Source of the DNA: Trichococcus paludicola
GTDB taxonomy: Bacteria; Bacillota; Bacilli; Lactobacillales; Aerococcaceae
DNA: 64,000 nt
NCBI RefSeq assembly: GCF_003052295.1
Contig: NZ_QBLC01000001.1
Coordinates: forward strand, 248,001-312,000
Direction: 5' to 3'
The notes beneath the pieces are model-generated. The model had not been told where the DNA came from, searched no databases, and saw nothing but the letters and a program-made list of their open reading frames with translations. Positions 10,145 through 52,265 of this stretch are shown one piece after another (the first letter of the stretch is position 1; each line of letters opens with the position of its first letter). Both the position numbers and the translations under genes were made by a program.

Positions 10145-10202
10145 AATCCCAACATTAAGAAATCGTTAGAAAAATCATTTCCATCTAATTAAACCGATAA
10201 TC

Positions 10203-10454
10203 AAGAGAAGTACGCATCATACCTTGTTTCCAGAGAGTCGCCGCCAGTGAGAGTGCGATAGCGAAGGGGATGCCGAATGGACTTGAGAGGGTTGCCTTGA
10301 AAAGAGTAGGGGCAAACGGGGAACCTGATCCGTTAACAGACAGGCACATATGTTGGTATGTGAACGAGTGGGCGATTCATTTCGTCAATTTGGGTGGTAT
10401 CGCAGGAGAATACAAGCTCTTGTCCCTTTAAAGGGGGGACAAGGGCTTTTTTTG
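10203..10454 (+). ncRNA. Tryptophan T-box riboswitch
   Basis: Stem I begins with the CCAGAGAG motif near 10230. The T-box sequence GGGTGGTATCGCAGG lies at 10392-10406, and a terminator stem with seven T (10414-10454) follows. The probable specifier TGG (Trp) is at 10278-10280 in the context GAA-TGG-ACT, which lines up with the ATG specifiers of the two Met T-boxes. Low charging of tRNA-Trp should turn on trpDCFBA. Confidence 0.92.
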
Positions 10455-10481
10455 TACACAAAAAATGATGAGGTGAATGAA

Positions 10482-11549
10482 ATGCTAGAGATAAAAGAGA
10501 CGAAACTGACCGAAGAAATTCTCCCGCAAGACAGCATGAAAGCCGCTATCGATAAACTGGTGAAAAAAGAAGAACTTTCCCCGCAATTGACGAAGACCAT
10601 CATGCACCAGATCATGAGCGGTCAAGCCAGTCCGGTCCAGATCGCATCTTACCTGACTGCTATGCGGATGAAAGGCGAGACGGCCGGCGAAATCAGTGCT
10701 TCCGCTGAAGTGATGCGGGATTTTTCAAATAAGGTGCGGACTAAGACTACGGCATTGGACATCGTCGGAACCGGCGGCGATCAAGCATTCACCTTCAACA
10801 TCTCAACCGTCTCTTCCTTTGTCATCGCAGCCGCAGGGATTCCGGTGGCGAAACACGGCAACCGCAGCTCCTCAAGCAAATGTGGCAGCGCGGATGTGCT
10901 GGAAGAATTAGGTGTGAACATCGAAGCCAGCGCGCAACACAGCGAAACGATGCTGGAAGAAATCGGGATGTGCTTCATGTACGCCCAAAAATACCATCCA
11001 TCGATGAAGCATGCGGCACCCGTCAGGAAAGAAATGGGTGTCCGGACGATCTTCAACGTTCTGGGGCCATTGGCGAACCCGGCCAACGCGAACATGCAAT
11101 TGCTCGGCGTGTATGATGTCGCACTGGTGGACACGATGGCTGAAGTGCTGAACCAATTGCAGATGGAACGGGCGCTTGTGTTCGGCGGAAATGACGGATT
11201 GGATGAAATCACATTGACCACAACATCGGAAGTCGCTGAGCTCCGCGACGGCAAGATAACCCACTTCACGTTCGATCCGAAAGACTATGGTTTCGAGTAC
11301 TGCACGAACGAAGATCTGGTGGGCGGGGAACCGGCTGAGAATGCGGCCATCGCCTTGGCTATCTTGAGCGGCGAAAAAGGGCCGAAGCGCGACACGGTGT
11401 TATTGAACGCCGGCATGGCCATCTATCTTGCTAATGACGACTATACGATCGCTGACGGCATCAAGCGCGCAGCCGAACTCATCGACAGCGGAGCGGCTCT
11501 GGCGAAATTAAAGCAATTCATCACTGCATCACAGGAGGCGACGAAATGA
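10482..11549 (+). CDS. trpD: Anthranilate phosphoribosyltransferase
   Basis: The enzyme joins anthranilate to PRPP, the second step of Trp synthesis. The open frame begins upstream at 10350 inside the T-box, but GAGGTG 7 bases before the ATG at 10482 marks the real start, giving 355 residues. The family usually begins at the M-K-A-A-I-D-K-L found at residue 19, so there is a short N-terminal extension. G-T-G-G-D at 96-100 and K-H-G-N-R-S at 124-129 are the PRPP and anthranilate contacts. It is the first gene of the operon: no trpE or trpG precedes it. The stop overlaps trpC (ATGA). Confidence 0.95.
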   Translation: MLEIKETKLTEEILPQDSMKAAIDKLVKKEELSPQLTKTIMHQIMSGQASPVQIASYLTAMRMKGETAGEISASAEVMRDFSNKVRTKTTALDIVGTGGDQAFTFNISTVSSFVIAAAGIPVAKHGNRSSSSKCGSADVLEELGVNIEASAQHSETMLEEIGMCFMYAQKYHPSMKHAAPVRKEMGVRTIFNVLGPLANPANANMQLLGVYDVALVDTMAEVLNQLQMERALVFGGNDGLDEITLTTTSEVAELRDGKITHFTFDPKDYGFEYCTNEDLVGGEPAENAAIALAILSGEKGPKRDTVLLNAGMAIYLANDDYTIADGIKRAAELIDSGAALAKLKQFITASQEATK

Positions 11550-19979: not shown

Positions 19980-20585
19980 ATGAAATACAGCATCTATACA
20001 CGCACAGGCGACAAAGGCAACACACGCATCGGAGGCGGGAAAGCTCTTCCGAAGAATGCCGAAAGGATCGAAGCTTTCGGCACGCTGGATGGGTTGAACT
20101 CATGGTTCGGGCTTGTCCGCACGAAGAATGATTGCGGCGAGGATATCCAGGAGGACATGGCGCTCATCCAGCAGTTCCTGTTCGATTGTTCCTCAGATTT
20201 GTCGATTCCGAAAGGGCACCGGGAGTACAAGCTCACGCAGGATCACATCGACTGGTTGGAGCAGAAAATCGACGGCTATAGCGAAGAACCGGAGGAAATC
20301 CAGTATTTCATCATACCGGGCGGAACGGAGTTGGCTAGCTGGTTTCACATTTTGCGGACGACGACCCGTGATGCCGAACGCCGGATCGTCACCTTCATGG
20401 AGCAAGAGCCGGATGAAGTGAATCCGTTTGTGCTGACGTTCATCAACCGTCTTTCGGACTACCTGTTTGTCGTGGCCCGTGTAGTAAATGTACGCAAAGG
20501 CGTTCCCGACGTGCCGTACGAACGGAGCGAAAAAGTGTTCCGGATTTCAGGAGATAAGGACAGTTCCAAGGCGAAACCGGAATAA
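19980..20585 (+). CDS. ATP:cob(I)alamin adenosyltransferase, PduO type
   Basis: The 201-residue protein makes adenosylcobalamin from cob(I)alamin and ATP. The N-terminal Y-T-R-T-G-D-K-G-N-T near 6-15 binds ATP. T-T-R-D-A-E-R-R near 129-136 and N-R-L-S-D-Y-L-F near 152-159 are the conserved helices of the PduO fold. AAAGGAGG precedes the ATG. No B12-dependent enzyme is next to it in this window, so it may serve enzymes elsewhere (propanediol or ethanolamine pathways, ribonucleotide reductase). Confidence 0.9.
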   Translation: MKYSIYTRTGDKGNTRIGGGKALPKNAERIEAFGTLDGLNSWFGLVRTKNDCGEDIQEDMALIQQFLFDCSSDLSIPKGHREYKLTQDHIDWLEQKIDGYSEEPEEIQYFIIPGGTELASWFHILRTTTRDAERRIVTFMEQEPDEVNPFVLTFINRLSDYLFVVARVVNVRKGVPDVPYERSEKVFRISGDKDSSKAKPE

Positions 20586-20611: not shown

Positions 20612-20771
20612 CTGCGGTGAAGGGCACTTTCGCCGGAGAAGAGAATCCCACCAAAATGTCACCTCCGGTCCACGCGGCTTCACCGGATTTGGGCTTCTGG
20701 AATTAAGTCTCCTCCGGCCATCAGGTCTCCCGCCGGAGCTGAGCGTACCCCCACAGGAGCATTTTCTCCGG
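20612..20771 (+). repeat. Array A of the 50-bp hairpin repeat
   Basis: Three units in a row: CTGCGG 20612 / CCGGAG 20633, CTCCGG 20663 / CCGGAT 20683, and CTCCGG 20712 / CCGGAG 20733. A fourth CTCCGG lies at 20766. The second box recurs exactly every 50 bp. Within a unit the two boxes can pair (CTCCGGC with GCCGGAG; TCCGGT with ACCGGA), so some base changes compensate each other. The array lies between converging genes and has no coding potential that I can support. Confidence 0.7.
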
Positions 20772-20893: not shown

Positions 20894-22441
20894 TCAGCGT
20901 AATACCGCTGGCAAAGCTTCGATGAGATCCGAAGCCATCAAGCTGTACTCCGATTTTTCTTGGGCAGCGATGTCCCCCGCCAAACCGTGGATGTAGACAC
21001 CCAATTTGGCCGCTTCGGAAGGTACTAAGCCTTGAGCCAATAAACCGGCGATGATGCCGGTCAAGGCATCGCCTGAACCGCCCGTCGCCATGCCGTTGTT
21101 GCCTGTCGCGTTGATGTAGTGCTCATCCTGATGGGCCACGACAGTCCGGGCATCCTTCATGACAAAGGTCAGATCCGAATCAGCCGTGCAAAACGCAGCA
21201 GTCCCTAAGAGATCCGCTTTTATTTCCGCCAAGTCCTTATCCAAAAGCCGCGCCAGTTCCTTCAAATGAGGGGTAAGGATGCTCCCCACTGGAACGGACT
21301 GCGACACTGCGTTGATGCGGGCACGGGAATCGTTCCCCGGCAAAGCCGCGTCGTTGAAACGATCGGAAAGGATATTCAGAGCATCCGCATCGATGATCAG
21401 AGGGATCTGGCTGTTTTCCAGAACCAAATCGACTACCGTGCGGGCTGCATCGGACTTCCCCATTCCTGGTCCGACAACAATCGCATCTGCGCAGGAAACC
21501 GCGGCGATGATTTTAAGGCGTTCGCTCTCCTTATCCAATCCATCCGTTTGGTAAGTCGTCAGGATGGCTTCAGGCAGCTGCATCTGAAGGATGGCGCGGT
21601 TCTCATCCGGCGTGACGATCTGGACCAGCCCGGCGCCAGTACGGTAGGCAGCTTTTGCCGAAAGGAAAGCAGCCCCGCTCATGTTTGCGGATCCGGCGAT
21701 GATCACGACCCGGCCGTAAGTGCCTTTGTTCGAATAGGCCGCGCGTCTCGGCAGCGAAAAAAGATCGCTCTCGTCATAGAACAGCACATTCGAAGAAATG
21801 ACGTCCATGGCGCTCGGTGGGAAACCGATATCGCTGACAATCAGTTTGCCGGTATGCAAAGAACCGGGGTAGAGCAGCTGGCCGATTTTTTCGATCCCGA
21901 AAGTGATGGTCACATCTGCCCGGACAGCGGTCCCCAGCACTTGTCCATTGTCGGCGGAGATACCGGATGGGATGTCGACAGCAAAGACATATCCTTGGAA
22001 CGCGTTCATGAGTTGGATCGTCTCCGCGTATTTCCCTTCTGCAGGTCTGTCCAAGCCGATGCCGAAAATCGCATCGACCAAGACGGTGTAGCCTTTGAAG
22101 TTGATTTCGCTGACGTCATCCCAGATGACCATGTCCAAGTTTTCGATGATGTCGAGTTGTTTTTTGGACTCAGCAGATAATTTGTCGTGTTCGCCGATCA
22201 AGAATACATCCACCTGGAAGCCGTGGTTCAATAAAATGCGGGCTGCCGCCATTCCGTCGCCGCCGTTGTTGCCTGAACCGCAGACCACGAGGATGATGTC
22301 CTCTCTTGAAATGCGTTCTTCCATGGCTGAGACGACCTGATTCGCCGCATTTTCCATCAGCACCAGGGCTGGGATGCCGATTTCATTGATCGTAAAGGCG
22401 TCGATTTTTTTCATCTGTTGGCTGTTGACAAGTTTTTTCAT
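20894..22441 (-). CDS. nnr: Bifunctional NAD(P)H-hydrate repair enzyme
   Basis: This 515-residue fusion repairs damaged (hydrated) NADH and NADPH. The N-terminal YjeF_N epimerase domain (about 1-215) has C-G-S-G-N-N-G-G-D-G and D-A-I-F-G-I-G-L-D-R. The C-terminal ADP/ATP-dependent dehydratase domain (about 225-510) has A-G-S-A-N-M-S-G-A, V-V-G-P-G-M-G, D-A-D-A-L-N and G-S-G-D-A-L-T-G. The frame extends 40 codons upstream, but AGGAGG 8 bases before the ATG at 22441 sets the start. It is a single gene with its own terminator. Confidence 0.95.
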   Translation of the reverse strand: MKKLVNSQQMKKIDAFTINEIGIPALVLMENAANQVVSAMEERISREDIILVVCGSGNNGGDGMAAARILLNHGFQVDVFLIGEHDKLSAESKKQLDIIENLDMVIWDDVSEINFKGYTVLVDAIFGIGLDRPAEGKYAETIQLMNAFQGYVFAVDIPSGISADNGQVLGTAVRADVTITFGIEKIGQLLYPGSLHTGKLIVSDIGFPPSAMDVISSNVLFYDESDLFSLPRRAAYSNKGTYGRVVIIAGSANMSGAAFLSAKAAYRTGAGLVQIVTPDENRAILQMQLPEAILTTYQTDGLDKESERLKIIAAVSCADAIVVGPGMGKSDAARTVVDLVLENSQIPLIIDADALNILSDRFNDAALPGNDSRARINAVSQSVPVGSILTPHLKELARLLDKDLAEIKADLLGTAAFCTADSDLTFVMKDARTVVAHQDEHYINATGNNGMATGGSGDALTGIIAGLLAQGLVPSEAAKLGVYIHGLAGDIAAQEKSEYSLMASDLIEALPAVLR

Positions 22442-22687
22442 TGAATATTCCTCCTGATGGTTGGTGGATGTCATTCCATTTTCACATTTGCTATTATACC
22501 ATTCTTGATGCGGGAAAGAATACGGGGAGCCTGATATAGCTCTATGCCAGGGGGAAACCAAATGATTGCTTTAACAAGCCGTGACTATTCTGCACAACAA
22601 TTTTCTGAAAACTTAGGGAAAACAGTCATTCACTTTTTATAAGTAATGTGATAATCTTATCAAGGAACTCGAATAAGGGAGGAATGT

Positions 22688-37011: not shown

Positions 37012-38211
37012 ATGAATTATGATTTTGAAACGCCCGTCAACCGGAGCAATACCGGGTCCGAAAAATGGGCAGCCATGTACAGAAGCAATCCGAATGTGGG
37101 GAAGGATGTTTTTCCTTTTTCTGTAGCGGATTTGGACATAAAGACAGCACCGCAGATCGTCAAAGGACTGCAGGAATATATCGAAACAGCCGTAATGGGC
37201 TATGATCTGCCGACCGAAGACTATTACCGCGCCATCATCAACTGGATGGGGAACCGCCATGCGTGGGAAATCAAGAAGGAATGGATCATCTGCACACCGG
37301 GCATCATTGCGGCGTTCTACTCCGCTATCCGAGCGTACACGGAACCGGGCGACGGAGTCCTTTACATGGGGCCGGTCTATTACCCGTTCATGAAGTCGAT
37401 CAAGAACACGAAACGCAAGCTCATCAACAATTCGTTGGTCCGCAACGGCGATCGCTACGAAATCGATTTTGATGGTTTGGCGGAAAAAGCCAAAGAGCCG
37501 AACATCAAACTGATGCTCTTCAGCAACCCGCATAATCCGGTCGGTCGCGTCTGGACCAAAGCGGAACTGGAGAAAGTGGTCGACATCTGCGCCGCCAATG
37601 ATGTCGTGATTTTGGCGGATGAAATCCACCACGATCTGATCATGCCAGGGCATAGCTTCACGCCGATGGCAGCCATATCGGAAGCAGCAGCGGACATCTG
37701 CATCACGGCAACCGCCGCCAGCAAGTCCTTCAATATCGCGGGACTCCGCAATTCCAATGTCATCATTTCGAATCCGGAGCTCCACACGGCTTTCAAGATG
37801 GATATGGAAATGACCGGCATCGGCGGAGGAACCAATGTCATCGGCTTGAAGGCGACAGAAATCGCCTATACGGCAGCCGAGGACTGGCTGGAAGAATTCA
37901 AAGACTTGATCTGGCATAACCACGAAGTGCTGAAAGATTTCCTAGCGAAGGAACTGCCGGAAGTGACCGTCTTTGATCTGGAAGGGACCTACCTGCAATG
38001 GATGGATTTCAGCGCCTTCGGATTGTCGCACAAAGAATTGGAAACCATCACGGAGCAGGAGGCGCAAGTCTTCCTGGATGAAGGCTACATCTTCGGAGAC
38101 GAAGGCCGTGGATACGAAAGAATCAGCCTGGGTGCCCCTACGAAAACGCTGATGGAAGCGATGCAGCGCCTGGTCACAGTCATGCAAAAATACCGGAAAC
38201 ACAATCAATAG
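37012..38211 (+). CDS. PatB/MalY-type PLP-dependent C-S lyase or aminotransferase
   Basis: The 399-residue fold-type I PLP enzyme has the lysine motif A-T-A-A-S-K-S-F-N-I-A-G-L near 230-242, N-P-H-N-P-V-G-R near 167-174 and A-D-E-I-H-H-D-L near 203-210. The E-I-H-x-D-L form is typical of MalY/PatB cystathionine beta-lyases, which release homocysteine from cystathionine or H2S from cysteine. GGGAGG precedes the ATG. It is a lone gene with terminators on both sides, and no T-box is seen. Confidence 0.88.
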   Translation: MNYDFETPVNRSNTGSEKWAAMYRSNPNVGKDVFPFSVADLDIKTAPQIVKGLQEYIETAVMGYDLPTEDYYRAIINWMGNRHAWEIKKEWIICTPGIIAAFYSAIRAYTEPGDGVLYMGPVYYPFMKSIKNTKRKLINNSLVRNGDRYEIDFDGLAEKAKEPNIKLMLFSNPHNPVGRVWTKAELEKVVDICAANDVVILADEIHHDLIMPGHSFTPMAAISEAAADICITATAASKSFNIAGLRNSNVIISNPELHTAFKMDMEMTGIGGGTNVIGLKATEIAYTAAEDWLEEFKDLIWHNHEVLKDFLAKELPEVTVFDLEGTYLQWMDFSAFGLSHKELETITEQEAQVFLDEGYIFGDEGRGYERISLGAPTKTLMEAMQRLVTVMQKYRKHNQ

Positions 38212-38219
38212 AACTGGGG

Positions 38220-38244
38220 GCTGTCTCGTTGCGGGGCAGCTTTT
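38220..38244 (+). terminator. Terminator of patB-like gene
   Basis: GCTGTCTC pairs with GGGGCAGC through wobbles, followed by a T-rich tail. Confidence 0.65.
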
Positions 38245-38302
38245 GGTTTGGAGGAAACGTAGGTTGCAGCAGCGATCCATCGAGCAGCAGCGTAGCGCGC
38301 TG

Positions 38303-38458
38303 CTCCGGTGATCGAAGGCTTGGCCGGAGTTCAGCCAACATTTTTTTGTGTTCTCCGATGAGGCCAGCTTCCCCGGAGCTGAGGTCGGAATTCAGTCGCG
38401 TCCTCCGGCGGGCGGACCCTCGCCGGAGCAGGGGCTACCTCCAGCTGATTTCCTCTGG
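38303..38458 (+). repeat. Array B of the 50-bp hairpin repeat
   Basis: CTCCGG at 38303, CTCCGA at 38353, CTCCGG at 38403 and CTCTGG at 38453 recur at exactly 50 bp. Their partner boxes CCGGAG start at 38324, 38373 and 38423. The third unit forms an 8-bp perfect stem, CTCCGGCG with CGCCGGAG. The first unit shares TTCAGCCAACATT with TTCGGCCAACATT of array C (48181). The array lies in the 382-bp gap between the patB-like gene and the Zn peptidase. Confidence 0.72.
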
Positions 38459-38593
38459 CCAACCAGAATCCGATGTTGCAAACAACGGATATCTAAAGAA
38501 TTTGATAAAATTACACGACCGTAAGCATTCTTCACCTTTTCTTCATAATCGGATGCTATACTGTAGAGTAAATAAAAGAAAGGTTGATGAGAC

Positions 38594-39292
38594 ATGTTGT
38601 ATCCATTCTTCGATAGCACCTATATATTGATCATCCTCGGTATCGTGGTTTCCATGATTGCTTCGGGATTCGTCAAACGTACCTTCAATACCTATAACAA
38701 AGTGAAAAGCCAAAACGGTTACACCGCTACGGATGCAGCACGCTTCATCCTGGAGCAATCGGGCATCCATGATGTGCAGATCGAACGCGTCCGTGGGGAT
38801 TTGACGGACCACTACGACTCGCGCGCCAAAGTGCTGCGTCTTTCTGATACGACAGCCAACTCGACTTCAGTTGCAGCTATCGGTGTCGCTGCCCATGAAG
38901 TCGGTCACGCGATCCAGGACCAAAAAAATTACATTCCGTTGCGCATGCGTGCAGGTTTGGTCCCGGCCGCCAATTTCGGCCAGATGCTTTCCATGCCGAT
39001 GATCATGATTGGCATGTTCGCAGGCATGAATCAGACGTTCCTCAATTTGGGGATCCTCTTCTTCTCGTTCAGCTTCTTGTTCCAAGTGGTCACATTGCCT
39101 GTCGAATTCAATGCATCCGGACGCGCGCTGAAGATCCTGTCGAACGGTGGCATCCTGAACGCGCAAGAAGTACCGAAAGCCCGCAAAGTTCTTGTGGCAG
39201 CAGCCATGACATATGTCGCGGCTGCCTTCATGAGCTTCCTGCAACTGCTCCGTCTGCTGTTGCTTTTCGGCGGCGGAAGCAACGACGATTAA
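38594..39292 (+). CDS. Membrane zinc metallopeptidase (YugP-like)
   Basis: The 232-residue protein is of the neutral zinc metallopeptidase family PF04298 (B. subtilis YugP). An N-terminal span (about 6-26) is followed by the zinc motif H-E-V-G-H-A-I-Q near 101-108, two middle spans (about 125-165), a conserved P-V-E-F-N-A-S-x-R-A near 176-185, and a C-terminal hydrophobic segment. The active site faces the cytoplasm or membrane. The substrate is unknown. Confidence 0.88.
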   Translation: MLYPFFDSTYILIILGIVVSMIASGFVKRTFNTYNKVKSQNGYTATDAARFILEQSGIHDVQIERVRGDLTDHYDSRAKVLRLSDTTANSTSVAAIGVAAHEVGHAIQDQKNYIPLRMRAGLVPAANFGQMLSMPMIMIGMFAGMNQTFLNLGILFFSFSFLFQVVTLPVEFNASGRALKILSNGGILNAQEVPKARKVLVAAAMTYVAAAFMSFLQLLRLLLLFGGGSNDD

Positions 39293-47018: not shown

Positions 47019-48035
47019 ATGCTGACAATCGGATACATCGGAAACGGAAAGAGCACGAACCGTTATCATCTGCCATTTTCTTTATCAAGAAGCAACATAA
47101 AAGTCAAAACAATCTATAGCCGGAATCCGGAGAAGAGCGATTGGGAAAAAATCGAGGGCATCCACTACACCGGGAATATTGCGGATGTGTTGGAGGATGA
47201 TGACATCCAGTTGGTGGTCGTCTGCACGCATACGAATTCCCACTACGAGTTCGCCAAACAAGCTTTGGACCACGGCAAAAATGTACTGGTCGAAAAACCC
47301 TTCATGGCAACTTCCGAAGAAGCGGCCGCCATTTTTGCTTACGCAAAAGAAAAGGGCTTGCTGGTCCAGTGTTACCAGAACAGACGCTACGATTCGGACT
47401 TCCTGACGACGCAGAAAGTCATCGAAAGCGGCAAATTAGGCGATCTGTTGGAAGTCGAGATAGCCATTGATTACTATCGCCCGGAAATTCCCTTGTCTAT
47501 CGACAGCTTCACCAAGGATACCAGCTACCTGTACGGAATCGGCAGCCATACCATCGATCAGGTCCTTTCCTATTTCGGCAAACCGGACAAAATCCATTAT
47601 GATGTGCGCCAATTGTTGGGGCCGGGCCGGATGAACGATTATTTCGATTTGGATTTCCACTATCAGAATCTGAAGGTTTCCATCAAATCCAGCTTCTTCA
47701 GACTGAAGGAGCGTCCGAGCTTCATCGTTTACGGCAAAAAGGGTATGTTCGTGAAACAGACCCGAGACCGTCAAGAAGAGCACCTGAAAATATTCCACAT
47801 GCCGAACAATTCCGATTTCGGTGTCGACCTGCCGGAACATTACGGGGTTCTGACATATATGGATGATGAAGGCGTCTACCACGAAGAAAAAGTTGTCTCC
47901 GAAAAAGGCGATTACGCCAGAGTCTATGACGATCTGTACAACGCAATCGTGAACGGTGCGGAAAAAGTCACCAAGGATGAAGAGACCCTGCTGCAGATGG
48001 ATATCATCGAAACAGGCATAGAGGGTATGGTCTAA
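47019..48035 (+). CDS. Gfo/Idh/MocA-family oxidoreductase
   Basis: The 338-residue NAD(P)-dependent dehydrogenase has an N-terminal Rossmann fold (I-G-Y-I-G-N-G-K near 4-11), then V-V-C-T-H-T-N-S-H near 68-76 and V-E-K-P-F near 91-95 (the conserved E-K-P), followed by the C-terminal alpha/beta domain. It oxidises or reduces a sugar or polyol; the substrate is not known. GGGGGAAG precedes the ATG. Confidence 0.88.
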   Translation: MLTIGYIGNGKSTNRYHLPFSLSRSNIKVKTIYSRNPEKSDWEKIEGIHYTGNIADVLEDDDIQLVVVCTHTNSHYEFAKQALDHGKNVLVEKPFMATSEEAAAIFAYAKEKGLLVQCYQNRRYDSDFLTTQKVIESGKLGDLLEVEIAIDYYRPEIPLSIDSFTKDTSYLYGIGSHTIDQVLSYFGKPDKIHYDVRQLLGPGRMNDYFDLDFHYQNLKVSIKSSFFRLKERPSFIVYGKKGMFVKQTRDRQEEHLKIFHMPNNSDFGVDLPEHYGVLTYMDDEGVYHEEKVVSEKGDYARVYDDLYNAIVNGAEKVTKDEETLLQMDIIETGIEGMV

Positions 48036-48154: not shown

Positions 48155-48282
48155 CTCCGGTGAACGGTGCCTTCGCCGAAGTTCGGCCAACATTCCGTTT
48201 GCGTCCTCCGCCGAGCGCAGCCTCGCTGTAGTTACGGCTGAAAGTTACCCAAGAACTTCGGTGAGCGTACGCCTCACCGGAG
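48155..48282 (+). repeat. Array C of the 50-bp hairpin repeat
   Basis: First boxes CTCCGG 48155, CTCCGC 48206 and CTTCGG 48256; second boxes CCGAAG 48176, CTGTAG 48226 and CCGGAG 48277. The spacing is 50-51 bp, as in arrays A and B. The third unit can form a 9-bp stem CTTCGGTGA/TCACCGGAG in which the change of box 1 is absorbed by a G-T pair. It lies between converging genes. Confidence 0.68.
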
Positions 48283-49403: not shown

Positions 49404-52265
49404 ATGTATTCGTTGATTACCAACAGCAAAAAAGGGACCTTGTTGGATGAATTAGTCCAATCGTTGGAAACGTGCCAACGCTTTTACCTGAACGTGGCCT
49501 TCATCAACTTTTCCGGACTGCAATTGTTGCTGGATCCGATCCAAAAAGCGGCAGAGAATGGTGCGTCCGGAAAAATACTGACGGGGACTTACCTGAACTT
49601 TACGGAACCGTATGCGTTGACCCGATTAAAAGCATTCCAGCATATCGATACGCGCATTTTTGTCGCTACCCATCAAACAGGCTTTCATCCTAAAGCTTAT
49701 ATTTTTGAATATACCAATTATTATAAAGTCATCGTCGGCTCTTCCAATATCACTCAAAGCGCCTTGAAAAGCAATATTGAATGGAACCTTCAGATCATCA
49801 CCAAGGACGGCGATGAGGACGAGCAATTCATTTCGGAAATTATGGAAGCCTACAGCCTGATTTGGGAAAGCAGCGAAATATTGGATGATGCCTTCATCAA
49901 TGATTACGCAAGTTTCTTGATGGATCGCAAAAAAGATCTTGTTGTCCAAGAGTCTTATCCTATGGTTTTCCAATTCACGCGCGGACCGTCGATCAAACCA
50001 AATATGATGCAGGAATTAGCGATAGAAAAGCTGATGCGGCTGCGGGAAAAGCACCAGGAGAAGGCGTTAGTGGTGGCTGCCACTGGAACCGGTAAAACGT
50101 TCCTAGCTGCTTTTGATGTGAAACAGGCAAAACCAGAGCGGCTTTTATTTCTGGTGCATCGAGAAGACATCCTGCATAGTGCGATGTCTTCCTTCAAAAA
50201 AATCATCAATCTGAAGGATAAATCGACCGGGATTTTATCCGGAACATCCAAAGAGCATCAGTCTGATTATTTGTTTGCGACGATCCAAAGCATGAAGAAT
50301 ATTTATGCAGAATATGATCCGGGGCACTTCGACTATATCATCGTGGATGAGGCGCATCATGCGACCAGTCCGAGATATATGGAGGTTCTCGAGCATTTTA
50401 ATCCCAAATTCCTGTTAGGGATGACTGCGACTCCGGAGCGGACGGATGGCGGTAACATCTTTGACCTGTTCGATAACAATGTACCGGTTGAAATCCGGTT
50501 GCGCGAGGCTTTGGAATACGATTTGTTGGTGCCGTTCCACTATTTTGGCATCACCGATGAATCGGGTGTCGATTTAAAGGATTCGGAAAATCTGACGCCT
50601 GATCAAATTGCAAAGCGCCTCAGTGTTCATCGAAGGGTAGATTTTATCATCGAAAAAATGAACTACTATGGGCATGATGGCTTGAAACGAAAAGCGTTAG
50701 GCTTCTGTATGACGATTGCGCATGCAGAATTTATGGCGGAGGAATTCAATAAACGGGGTATCCCAAGCATCGCCTTATCCGGTGGCGATAAAGTATCCAG
50801 AAGAGAAGCCTACACGAAGTTACTGGAAGCGGAAGATTCTGATCTGGAAGTGATCTTCACCGTGGACATTTTCAATGAAGGAATCGATATTCCCGGCGTC
50901 AATCTGGTCATGATGCTGCGGCCGACCCAATCTTCCATTGTGTTCACACAACAATTGGGACGTGGCTTGCGCAAAAAAGACAACAAGGAATTCCTGACGG
51001 TCTTGGATTTCATCGGCAATTACAGCAAAAGCTTCCTGAACGCGATCGCTCTGAACGGGCGCCGCTTTTACGACAAGGACAGCGTCAAGACGTCAGTGAA
51101 ACGCAATTTCTCGGATTTGCCGGGAGCGACCCATATCCAGTTGGACGAAATCAGCAAACAACAGATTCTGGAGCAAATTGATTTTGAGAACTTTTCTACT
51201 CTGGCCTATTTAAAGAATACGTACAATGAATTCAAAAACTTGAATAACGGAAGAATTCCTTGGCTATTGCAGGATTATTTAAAAGTCGATGCCGCACCAG
51301 ACCCGGTTAAATTCTTCTCCAGATCGGGTAAATTTAAAGCGAAGAACTACATCGAATTTTTGGATAAAGTCGAGCCGAATAATGAACTAGTGATGGAATT
51401 GCAAGGTAATCCTTTATTCATGGCCATGTTGACTGATTTGTCTCAAAAATTACCTTTAGTTCGGCTACATGAAAATATGATCTTAAACTATCTGCTGACA
51501 AGTGAAACATGTAGTTTGGAGACAGCAAGAGCAGAATTACTAGAGTATTTGGATACAGTCGATGACGAGACCATTCTGCATGCTTTCCGTACCTTGAATA
51601 TGGAATTTTCTGATAAAGGGGAATTGAAATCTGCAAGACCATTGGTGACTTTGGATGATAGGAATATGTTGCATCGGACGGAAGAATTTTCAATCATCTT
51701 GGCAGATGAACAGTATCGTCCTTTTATCGAAGATGTCCTGCATTACGGCAGAATGCGCTATTTAAAAACATTTGGCTCAATAAACTATGGCATCCCGCAT
51801 TTGAAACTCTACGAAGAGTACACAATGAAGGACATCGCCATTGTTTCAAACTATAAAAAAATACATTCTTCCTTCCGAGGACAGGGCGTGCTGAAAAATG
51901 ATGAAATCAATCATTACTTCTATTTTGTGGACCTTCATAAAGGTGACGACGTAGAAGAACGCGTGAACTACAAGGATAAGTTCATCAACACCAAGCAGTT
52001 CCAATGGGAATCGCCTAACTCCACAAAAGTAGACTCTGACCGAGGGCAAGACTTCATCCATGCGGAAAAACGAGGCGTAACCTTGCATTTGTTCGCGCGG
52101 AAATTCAAACAAATCGATAATGTGACATCCAAATTCATCTATTTAGGCAAAATAAATCCATTGTCATACCGAAATGAAAAACCGATTGAGATTCAATATA
52201 AGCTGCAAAACGAAGTGCCGTGGGAGTTATATCAAGAGTTTGAACCGGAACTTCCCATCAAGTAA
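49404..52265 (+). CDS. PLD-domain plus DEAD/DEAH helicase plus DUF3427 protein
   Basis: The 953-residue protein has three parts. Residues 1-170 form a phospholipase D-like nuclease domain with H-P-K (H95, K97) and G-S-S-N at 112-115, one half of an HKD site, so a dimer would make the full site. Residues 200-580 form an SF2 helicase: Walker A A-T-G-T-G-K-T 226-232, D-E-A-H 315-318, T-A-T 341-343, and motif VI Q-Q-L-G-R-G-L-R. The C-terminal region (about 640-950) is of the DUF3427 type. Such proteins resemble helicase-nucleases of restriction and phage-defence systems. No methylase or partner gene lies beside it. AGGTGGAG precedes the ATG. Confidence 0.85.
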   Translation: MYSLITNSKKGTLLDELVQSLETCQRFYLNVAFINFSGLQLLLDPIQKAAENGASGKILTGTYLNFTEPYALTRLKAFQHIDTRIFVATHQTGFHPKAYIFEYTNYYKVIVGSSNITQSALKSNIEWNLQIITKDGDEDEQFISEIMEAYSLIWESSEILDDAFINDYASFLMDRKKDLVVQESYPMVFQFTRGPSIKPNMMQELAIEKLMRLREKHQEKALVVAATGTGKTFLAAFDVKQAKPERLLFLVHREDILHSAMSSFKKIINLKDKSTGILSGTSKEHQSDYLFATIQSMKNIYAEYDPGHFDYIIVDEAHHATSPRYMEVLEHFNPKFLLGMTATPERTDGGNIFDLFDNNVPVEIRLREALEYDLLVPFHYFGITDESGVDLKDSENLTPDQIAKRLSVHRRVDFIIEKMNYYGHDGLKRKALGFCMTIAHAEFMAEEFNKRGIPSIALSGGDKVSRREAYTKLLEAEDSDLEVIFTVDIFNEGIDIPGVNLVMMLRPTQSSIVFTQQLGRGLRKKDNKEFLTVLDFIGNYSKSFLNAIALNGRRFYDKDSVKTSVKRNFSDLPGATHIQLDEISKQQILEQIDFENFSTLAYLKNTYNEFKNLNNGRIPWLLQDYLKVDAAPDPVKFFSRSGKFKAKNYIEFLDKVEPNNELVMELQGNPLFMAMLTDLSQKLPLVRLHENMILNYLLTSETCSLETARAELLEYLDTVDDETILHAFRTLNMEFSDKGELKSARPLVTLDDRNMLHRTEEFSIILADEQYRPFIEDVLHYGRMRYLKTFGSINYGIPHLKLYEEYTMKDIAIVSNYKKIHSSFRGQGVLKNDEINHYFYFVDLHKGDDVEERVNYKDKFINTKQFQWESPNSTKVDSDRGQDFIHAEKRGVTLHLFARKFKQIDNVTSKFIYLGKINPLSYRNEKPIEIQYKLQNEVPWELYQEFEPELPIK

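Follow-up and report, generated by a model that had tools for sequence, protein, structure and literature searches.

The genomes of Trichococcus contain a family of short intergenic arrays, most of them built from three palindromes, that is specific to this genus among the genomes searched. The best-supported statement about the arrays, as judged from sequence comparison, is that they consist of clustered half-sites in double-strand DNA and that the core of the half-site is held by selection. Each array may be a clustered operator for a putative sequence-specific double-strand-DNA-binding protein, a reading to which a probability of about one half (0.5) is assigned.

The window, a stretch of 64,000 nucleotides of Trichococcus paludicola (contig NZ_QBLC01000001.1, positions 248,001 to 312,000), holds three such arrays, designated A, B and C (Table 1). 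They had been located, with their complementary boxes, in a first-pass annotation made from the sequence alone, and all of these positions and boxes were confirmed in the window sequence, where exact CTCCGG..CCGGAG pairs occur three times versus 0.06 expected from shuffles. The gene-free placement claimed for them holds more generally: by our own gene calls, overlap with a gene is seen for two of 84 arrays, both of which lie outside the window. Array B is covered by a mechanically called open reading frame (38229-38630) that has no NCBIfam match. The description of a dispersed, non-coding, intergenic, BIME-like family was likewise supported, and Rfam 15 has no match to the arrays at gathering score; its sole match in the window is a T-box leader (10188-10430, + strand, 112 bits) at the start of an open reading frame (10350-11549). 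The pduO protein encoded next to array A was compared with ten relatives, of which eight are on Trichococcus contigs, one (96% identical) comes from a contig that carries the label Sedimentibacter sp. SX930, and the last (45% identical) belongs to a Pediococcus bin. Elsewhere in the window, a 953-aa protein (49404-52265) matches EcoAI R subunit and RadD restriction-type helicase models below their cut-offs, and is possibly the product of a defence or repair gene.

Table 1. Palindromes of arrays A, B and C and the genes beside them, in window coordinates.
Feature	Position	Strand	Remarks
Array A palindrome 1	20612..20638	.	27 bp; left box CTGCGG
Array A palindrome 2	20663..20688	.	26 bp
Array A palindrome 3	20712..20738	.	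27 bp; exact CTCCGG..CCGGAG
Array A degenerate fourth left box	20766		read from sequence
Array B palindrome 1	38303..38329	.	27 bp; exact CTCCGG..CCGGAG
Array B palindrome 2	38353..38378	.	26 bp
Array B palindrome 3	38403..38428	.	26 bp; exact CTCCGG..CCGGAG
Array B degenerate fourth left box	38453		read from sequence
Array C palindrome 1	48155..48181	.	27 bp
Array C palindrome 2	48206..48231	.	26 bp
Array C palindrome 3	48256..48282	.	27 bp
PduO-type cob(I)yrinic acid a,c-diamide adenosyltransferase gene	19980..20585	+	stops 26 bp ahead of array A
NAD(P)H-hydrate epimerase/dehydratase gene	20894..22561	-	faces pduO convergently, array A between
PatB-family C-S lyase gene	37012..38211	+	upstream of array B
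Oxidoreductase gene	47019..48035	+	upstream of array C; matches under curated cut-offs

The anatomy of the element was derived from a two-arm scan, for which 852 kb from the window's own genome (G000; 63% complete, with 5 contigs totalling 1.94 Mb) and from the complete genome G001 served as training sequence. The scan found 158 palindromes in these 852 kb, versus 6 in one equal-sized Markov-simulated control; with weak neighbours included, they form 44 arrays of at least two units, plus 10 single units. Thirty-five of the 44 arrays have three units and six have four, the remainder being single arrays of two, eight and twelve units. Nearly all palindromes (154 of 158) are 26 or 27 bp long, and the almost fixed 50-bp period described for the window is general, the start-to-start spacing being 50 or 51 bp in 94 of 107 neighbours. 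Each palindrome consists of two inverted half-sites with the conserved sequence CTSWnCTCCGGYSARSS, almost alike in the outer and inner arms, whose cores start 20-21 bp (about two helical turns) apart; three palindromes at this period amount to six half-sites across ~130-140 bp, in which the palindromes are GC-rich and the centres of the linkers between them AT-rich. An expectation-maximization (EM) fit of array orientation, made without a null, reversed 15 of 35 arrays and yielded no clear polar consensus. The largest accumulation, among ordinary genes of G001 (C1:1550001-1558000), comprises 75 palindromes in 8 kb, mostly arranged in 189-bp higher-order units with spacings of 51, 50, 50 and 38 bp. 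Among the matches listed, clustered model matches at 1556-1563 kb in G001 and at 2425-2454 kb in another complete genome, G006, suggest that these mega-array clusters are a syntenic block. A different repetitive stretch of ~5 kb, with many matching registers that are often 66 bp apart, is shared by G006 (within C1:823001-843000) and G001 (C1, ~3265-3270 kb) and is perhaps a repetitive protein gene.

Many further copies were found in both the genome and the genus. The window's genome contains 52 occurrences of the exact pattern CTCCGG-N12-18-CCGGAG (versus 3 of a control pattern); each of 11 other Trichococcus genomes that are at least 98% complete contains 70-267 (control 1-9), a Trichococcus genome that is 51% complete contains 28, and 28 genomes from other genera of the family and order have 0-2 apiece. 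R1, a sequence-only model of the whole array built from 25 arrays, has matches at E <= 0.01 in 13 of 13 Trichococcus genomes and in none of 63 others of the family. Among 398 genomes from the phylum, 17 besides its own have an R1 match at this threshold, all of them weak (best E 2.3e-5). Two of these 17 distant matches were inspected: one (L155) is without periodic palindromes by eye, and the other (L157, in G358, from elsewhere in the Bacilli) is a 52-bp tandem satellite. The satellite resembles the arrays in its CTCCGG box and nearly equal period and in being found by R1, but, unlike a dispersed family, it is arranged as tandem copies, and R1 matches its genome in two places; the likeness is likely a coincidence. 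It occupies positions 1075-1921 of L157, some 50 bases ahead of a terminator-like hairpin. No match was found in viral contigs with one exact pattern as the query, nor in phage and plasmid records with one tandem block. Searches of the Trichococcus literature on repeats, palindromes, intergenic DNA and comparative genomics yielded no earlier account of the array; the main text of a Trichococcus genome paper (PMC6950789) does not mention repeats, palindromes or intergenic regions, and that of the RepRanger paper (PMC12306157) does not name Trichococcus. The triple-palindrome arrays thus appear to be undescribed.

Selection on the half-site core is indicated by its slow change between orthologous arrays. 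Thirty arrays supplied 105 ungapped palindrome pairs, none of them counted twice (pairs with gaps within 10 bp and repeat views being excluded); among these, positions 1-4 differ between orthologues in 45 of 840 comparisons (5.4%), and positions 9 (12/210) and -2 (15/210) are also slow. Positions 5-6 differ in 59 of 420, positions 7, 8 and 10-13 in 245 of 1259 (19.5%), and the adjoining linker in 170 of 1050 (16.2%). The ratio of change in the core to change in the rest is 0.30, with a bootstrap range over arrays of 0.21-0.40 that counts orthologous arrays from different genomes as separate, though they are not independent. When only changes in a third lineage were counted, at letters shared by the finding genome and an outgroup (307 overlapping triples from 33 arrays), the core had changed at 3.4%, the surrounding positions at 11.8%, the linkers at 13.0% and the flanks at 9.3%. 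The strictest set, in which the whole array is ungapped (12 comparisons of 9 arrays, each pair apparently entered from both sides), gives a weaker contrast, with 7.9% for the core versus 18.0% for the rest and 13.3% for the linker. Because the arrays were located by the motif itself, ascertainment accounts for some of the slow change in the core; one-sided ascertainment alone, we reckon, would bring the core/rest ratio near 0.5. Position 5, although nearly as informative as the core, changes at 16%.

Bacterial palindromic repeats are often assumed on sight to be hairpins, and selection for a hairpin had been proposed for these units in the first-pass annotation because several changes in one box have a complementary counterpart in the second. 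Single examples of such matched changes are real, but statistically they are barely in excess: the arms vary nearly independently, with covariation near the level of shuffles and a small excess at one position. The near-absence of excess compensating changes in an alignment of the copies comes close to the result that had been set beforehand as speaking against a hairpin. Among 149 palindromes, Watson-Crick pairs at stem positions 6-10 number 100, 73, 82, 114 and 81, versus 96, 68, 80, 116 and 68 expected from column frequencies, and those at position -1 number 52 versus 40. The covariation score of 25 aligned arrays was equalled by 68 of 500 shuffles, and 78 of the 500 equalled their proportion of paired cells. 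In a set of 129 palindromes, matching arms are in excess at position 10 (74 versus 58 expected, p = 0.001), not in excess at stem positions 6-9, and below expectation at positions 12 and 13; positions 6-10 jointly have 391 matches versus 367.5 expected (p = 0.006). Mismatches in this set are G.T in 92 cases versus A.C in 90, so that neither RNA strand is favoured and a strand-specific RNA is not supported. Of 159 comparisons of orthologous arrays, 36 were dropped for low coverage or identity; in the 123 used, which were partly entered from both sides so that single changes making and breaking a pair are equal by construction, both arms had changed at positions 6-10 in 75 cases versus 53.4 under independence. 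Eleven of these 75 double changes convert one Watson-Crick pair into another, whereas a pair is lost through a single change in 170 cases. At position -2, 96-100% of half-sites carry A or T, with no preference for pairing, and RNAalifold assigns an unfavourable covariation term (+0.35) and a consensus that retains one of the three local stems. The palindrome is better explained by two half-sites, each read mainly alone, than by a stem; the orthologous copies in many species suggest that what selection sees is the letters of the half-site and not their pairing.

Placement relative to genes was assessed for 84 arrays of at least two units in 12 blocks of nine genomes, orthologues included, with genes and terminators called by our own procedure. 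Of the 82 arrays that could be placed, 49 have co-directional genes on either side, 31 have convergent neighbours and 2 (a single orthologous site) divergent ones, in a background of 1023, 258 and 253 gaps of these kinds; the window's genome and the first 400 kb of G001 by themselves contribute 24, 17 and 1. The copies, when mapped against gene orientation, therefore avoid divergent promoters, and their location behind genes and outside promoters makes an architectural role likelier than the regulation of single genes. For arrays of three or four units in the window's genome and the first 400 kb of G001, a terminator-like hairpin with a T-run stands between the stop codon and the array at 39 of 53 array-facing gene ends, with a median distance of 42 nt (range 13-88) from the T-run to the first palindrome. 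A terminator-like site lies beyond the array at 8 of the 53 ends, and none was found at 6; at the pduO end facing array A, none was detected before the array. Some arrays may be transcribed, since no terminator was found between stop codon and array at 14 of these ends.

In two complete genomes a region of some 600 kb next to dif appears to lack arrays, as judged from the listed arrays, which were drawn from the best 150 of 960 candidates in G001 and the best 150 of 710 in G006. Among the matches listed, G001 has a gap of 867 kb, from 479 to 1346 kb, and G006 one of 602 kb, from 2539.5 kb via the contig ends to 216.7 kb. A full scan of G001 between 600 and 1000 kb found four single palindromes but no array of at least two units, versus 23 such arrays between 0 and 400 kb. 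Non-divergent gaps of at least 100 bp number 124 and 122 in these two stretches, and those of at least 200 bp number 51 and 83, the arrays themselves enlarging gaps. Gaps as long as those observed arose in 1 of 20000 random placements for G006 (73 listed arrays) and in none for G001 (53 listed arrays), or in 12 and 7 of 20000, respectively, when arrays within 10 kb were merged. A dif-like site of G001 (C1:715751-715778, 715.75 kb) agrees with 25 of 28 letters of the consensus, and the GC skew turns there from plus to minus. Of the G006 stretches sampled, that at 0 kb is collinear with G001 at 951 kb (91% identical) and that at 250 kb with G001 at 654 kb (89% identical), and a stretch at 100 kb has no match above 500 bp in G001; mapped through G001, the dif site of G006 would lie near 200 kb, at the edge of the zone. 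The stretches without listed arrays in both genomes adjoin or include the terminus and are not centred on dif. The zone contains housekeeping genes (clpX, tig, asnS, cca and dapB) together with a phage portal gene, and the presence of the former makes selection against insertions an alternative to a domain function.

Arrays are gained, lost and resized between species. At G000:C1:470342 an array is present in two of nine genomes, the other seven having 9-16 bp between the matched flanks. Orthologues of the array at G000:C1:480960 have 4 palindromes in G000, 3 in G012, 13 in G001, 3 in G006, 4 in G003, 6 in G004, 4 in G005 and none in G011, G002 not being placeable. By eye, the site of array A has three palindromes in the window's genome, T. 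alkaliphilus, SX930, T. patagoniensis and T. ilyis, one in T. flocculiformis, remnants in T. pasteurii, T. collinsii and strain K1Tr, and nothing alignable in T. palustris. Since arrays differ in this way between species at the same site, no single such array is essential. A scan of 41 arrays of three or four units for target duplications revealed nothing consistent. At the single site where presence and absence compare cleanly, the inferred ends are not fixed but vary from 39-52 bp ahead of the first palindrome and from 15-30 bp past the last; a MITE, with its target-site duplication at fixed ends, is thus not supported. Several empty sites hold palindrome remnants and resemble deletions, and the tandem blocks and varying unit numbers point to duplication and deletion in the spread of the arrays.

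The independence of the arms, together with the slowness of the half-site core, fits operators better than RNA hairpins, REP/BIME elements or a MITE. We infer the existence of a binding protein as the simplest explanation, and its oligomerization likewise: a putative oligomeric protein on the six half-sites could coat, bridge or wrap the DNA, and the arrays may serve chromosome organization or act as a barrier behind terminators. Chromosome organization as the role is a guess, guided by the placement of the arrays and by the array-poor zone. The more elaborate possibility of an undescribed chromosome-organizing or nucleoid-occlusion system, in which a genus-wide oligomeric protein would occupy triple-palindrome platforms behind genes throughout the chromosome except ~600 kb from dif into one replichore, is considered improbable. 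If a protein does bind, the chromosomes of one genus would carry a large class of unstudied sites that leaves a domain-like gap close to the terminus. The main rival, which is compatible with the operator reading because an element may spread and then be kept, is a BOX/RUP-like parasite, that is, a modular non-autonomous repeat that multiplied in the ancestor of Trichococcus and is tolerated 3' of genes without a host function, its palindromes being sites bound by the enzyme through which it formerly spread. Such an origin without function is possible, if on the unlikely side: it would suit the confinement to one genus of the family, the presence or absence of arrays at orthologous sites (as in two of nine genomes at G000:C1:470342), the unit numbers of 0, 3, 4, 6 or 13 at one orthologous site, the 189-bp tandem blocks, and the absence from a housekeeping region where insertions may be counter-selected, but no target duplication stands out, the inferred ends wander, the single queries of viral contigs and of phage and plasmid records found no match, and a half-site core that stays slow in place is unexpected for dead insertions.

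Two further explanations are less probable still. A BIME-2-like platform for DNA gyrase, on which arrays behind transcription units relieve positive supercoils, would agree with the location behind genes and between convergent genes, with the alternation of AT-rich linker centres and GC-rich palindromes, and with an element length of ~130-140 bp, which would suit DNA wrapped on gyrase. Nothing in the data is specific to gyrase, however, and gyrase is near universal whereas the arrays were found in one genus; a strong preference for CTCCGG is not a known feature of gyrase either, and we hold this explanation to be very improbable. The least probable is that the arrays act as hairpins of RNA or single-strand DNA, stabilizing mRNA 3' ends in the manner of REP sequences. 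General pairing-preserving covariation and G.U strand asymmetry are both absent, the RNAalifold covariation term is unfavourable, and the terminator-like sites that precede the array at 39 of 53 gene ends also speak against it, even though the inverted boxes can form stems of 6-10 bp, the 3' location is REP-like, the 14 ends without a detected terminator-like site before the array include that of pduO, matching arms are in slight excess at position 10, and a hairpin in which only the invariant core of 5-6 bp matters would be beyond the reach of covariation.

Among known systems, a CRISPR array was rejected because the short, scattered arrays are made of degenerate palindromes, as opposed to near-identical direct repeats with unrelated spacers. 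The REP and BIME elements of enterobacteria and pseudomonads are, according to PMC2817692, palindromic high-copy sequences that form composite clusters and act as protein-binding sites. To that extent the Trichococcus arrays are similar, being palindromic, high-copy, clustered and intergenic, but unlike REP/BIME they have a stem without clear compensating changes. REP sequences also have a conserved foot tetranucleotide (GTAG or GGAG) 5' of the stem, which has no counterpart in the Trichococcus arrays, where the outward flank is CTSWn in both arms. For a REP-associated tyrosine transposase as the driver of the arrays, no consistent link between them and genes with the PF01797 domain was found: 12 of 13 Trichococcus genomes have 1-8 matches each, some broken (and IS200/IS605 would look alike), an array lies within the 3.4 kb scanned at one of three such loci, and G008 (98% complete, 60 contigs), in which PF01797 was not found, has 220 exact palindromes nonetheless. 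The BOX, RUP and SPRITE repeats of Streptococcus pneumoniae are, according to PMC3049150, small interspersed repeats of high copy number, nearly confined to close relatives and proposed to be parasitic and slow-moving. The Trichococcus arrays share their high copy number and restriction to close relatives, but no target duplication was found for the arrays and their arms lack clear selection for pairing. BOX elements resemble the arrays in containing variable numbers of an internal module. The architecture differs, the Trichococcus array being a single palindrome that recurs, in most cases three times, every 50 bp. Membership of the Noc system was not supported by a gene search of 76 genomes of the family, none of which has a Noc protein above the model cut-off; matches below the cut-off, presumably including ParB, occur in 75 of the 76, and the best in G001, at 2354 kb, is probably ParB. 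Noc-binding sites number about 70 and have another sequence. The sites of Noc and of SlmA from E. coli are among the closest known systems: as described in PMC4331003, the Noc sites of Bacillus subtilis are dispersed palindromic sites that are missing from the terminus, a parallel to the Trichococcus arrays, whose array-poor zone, as a difference, is not centred on dif.
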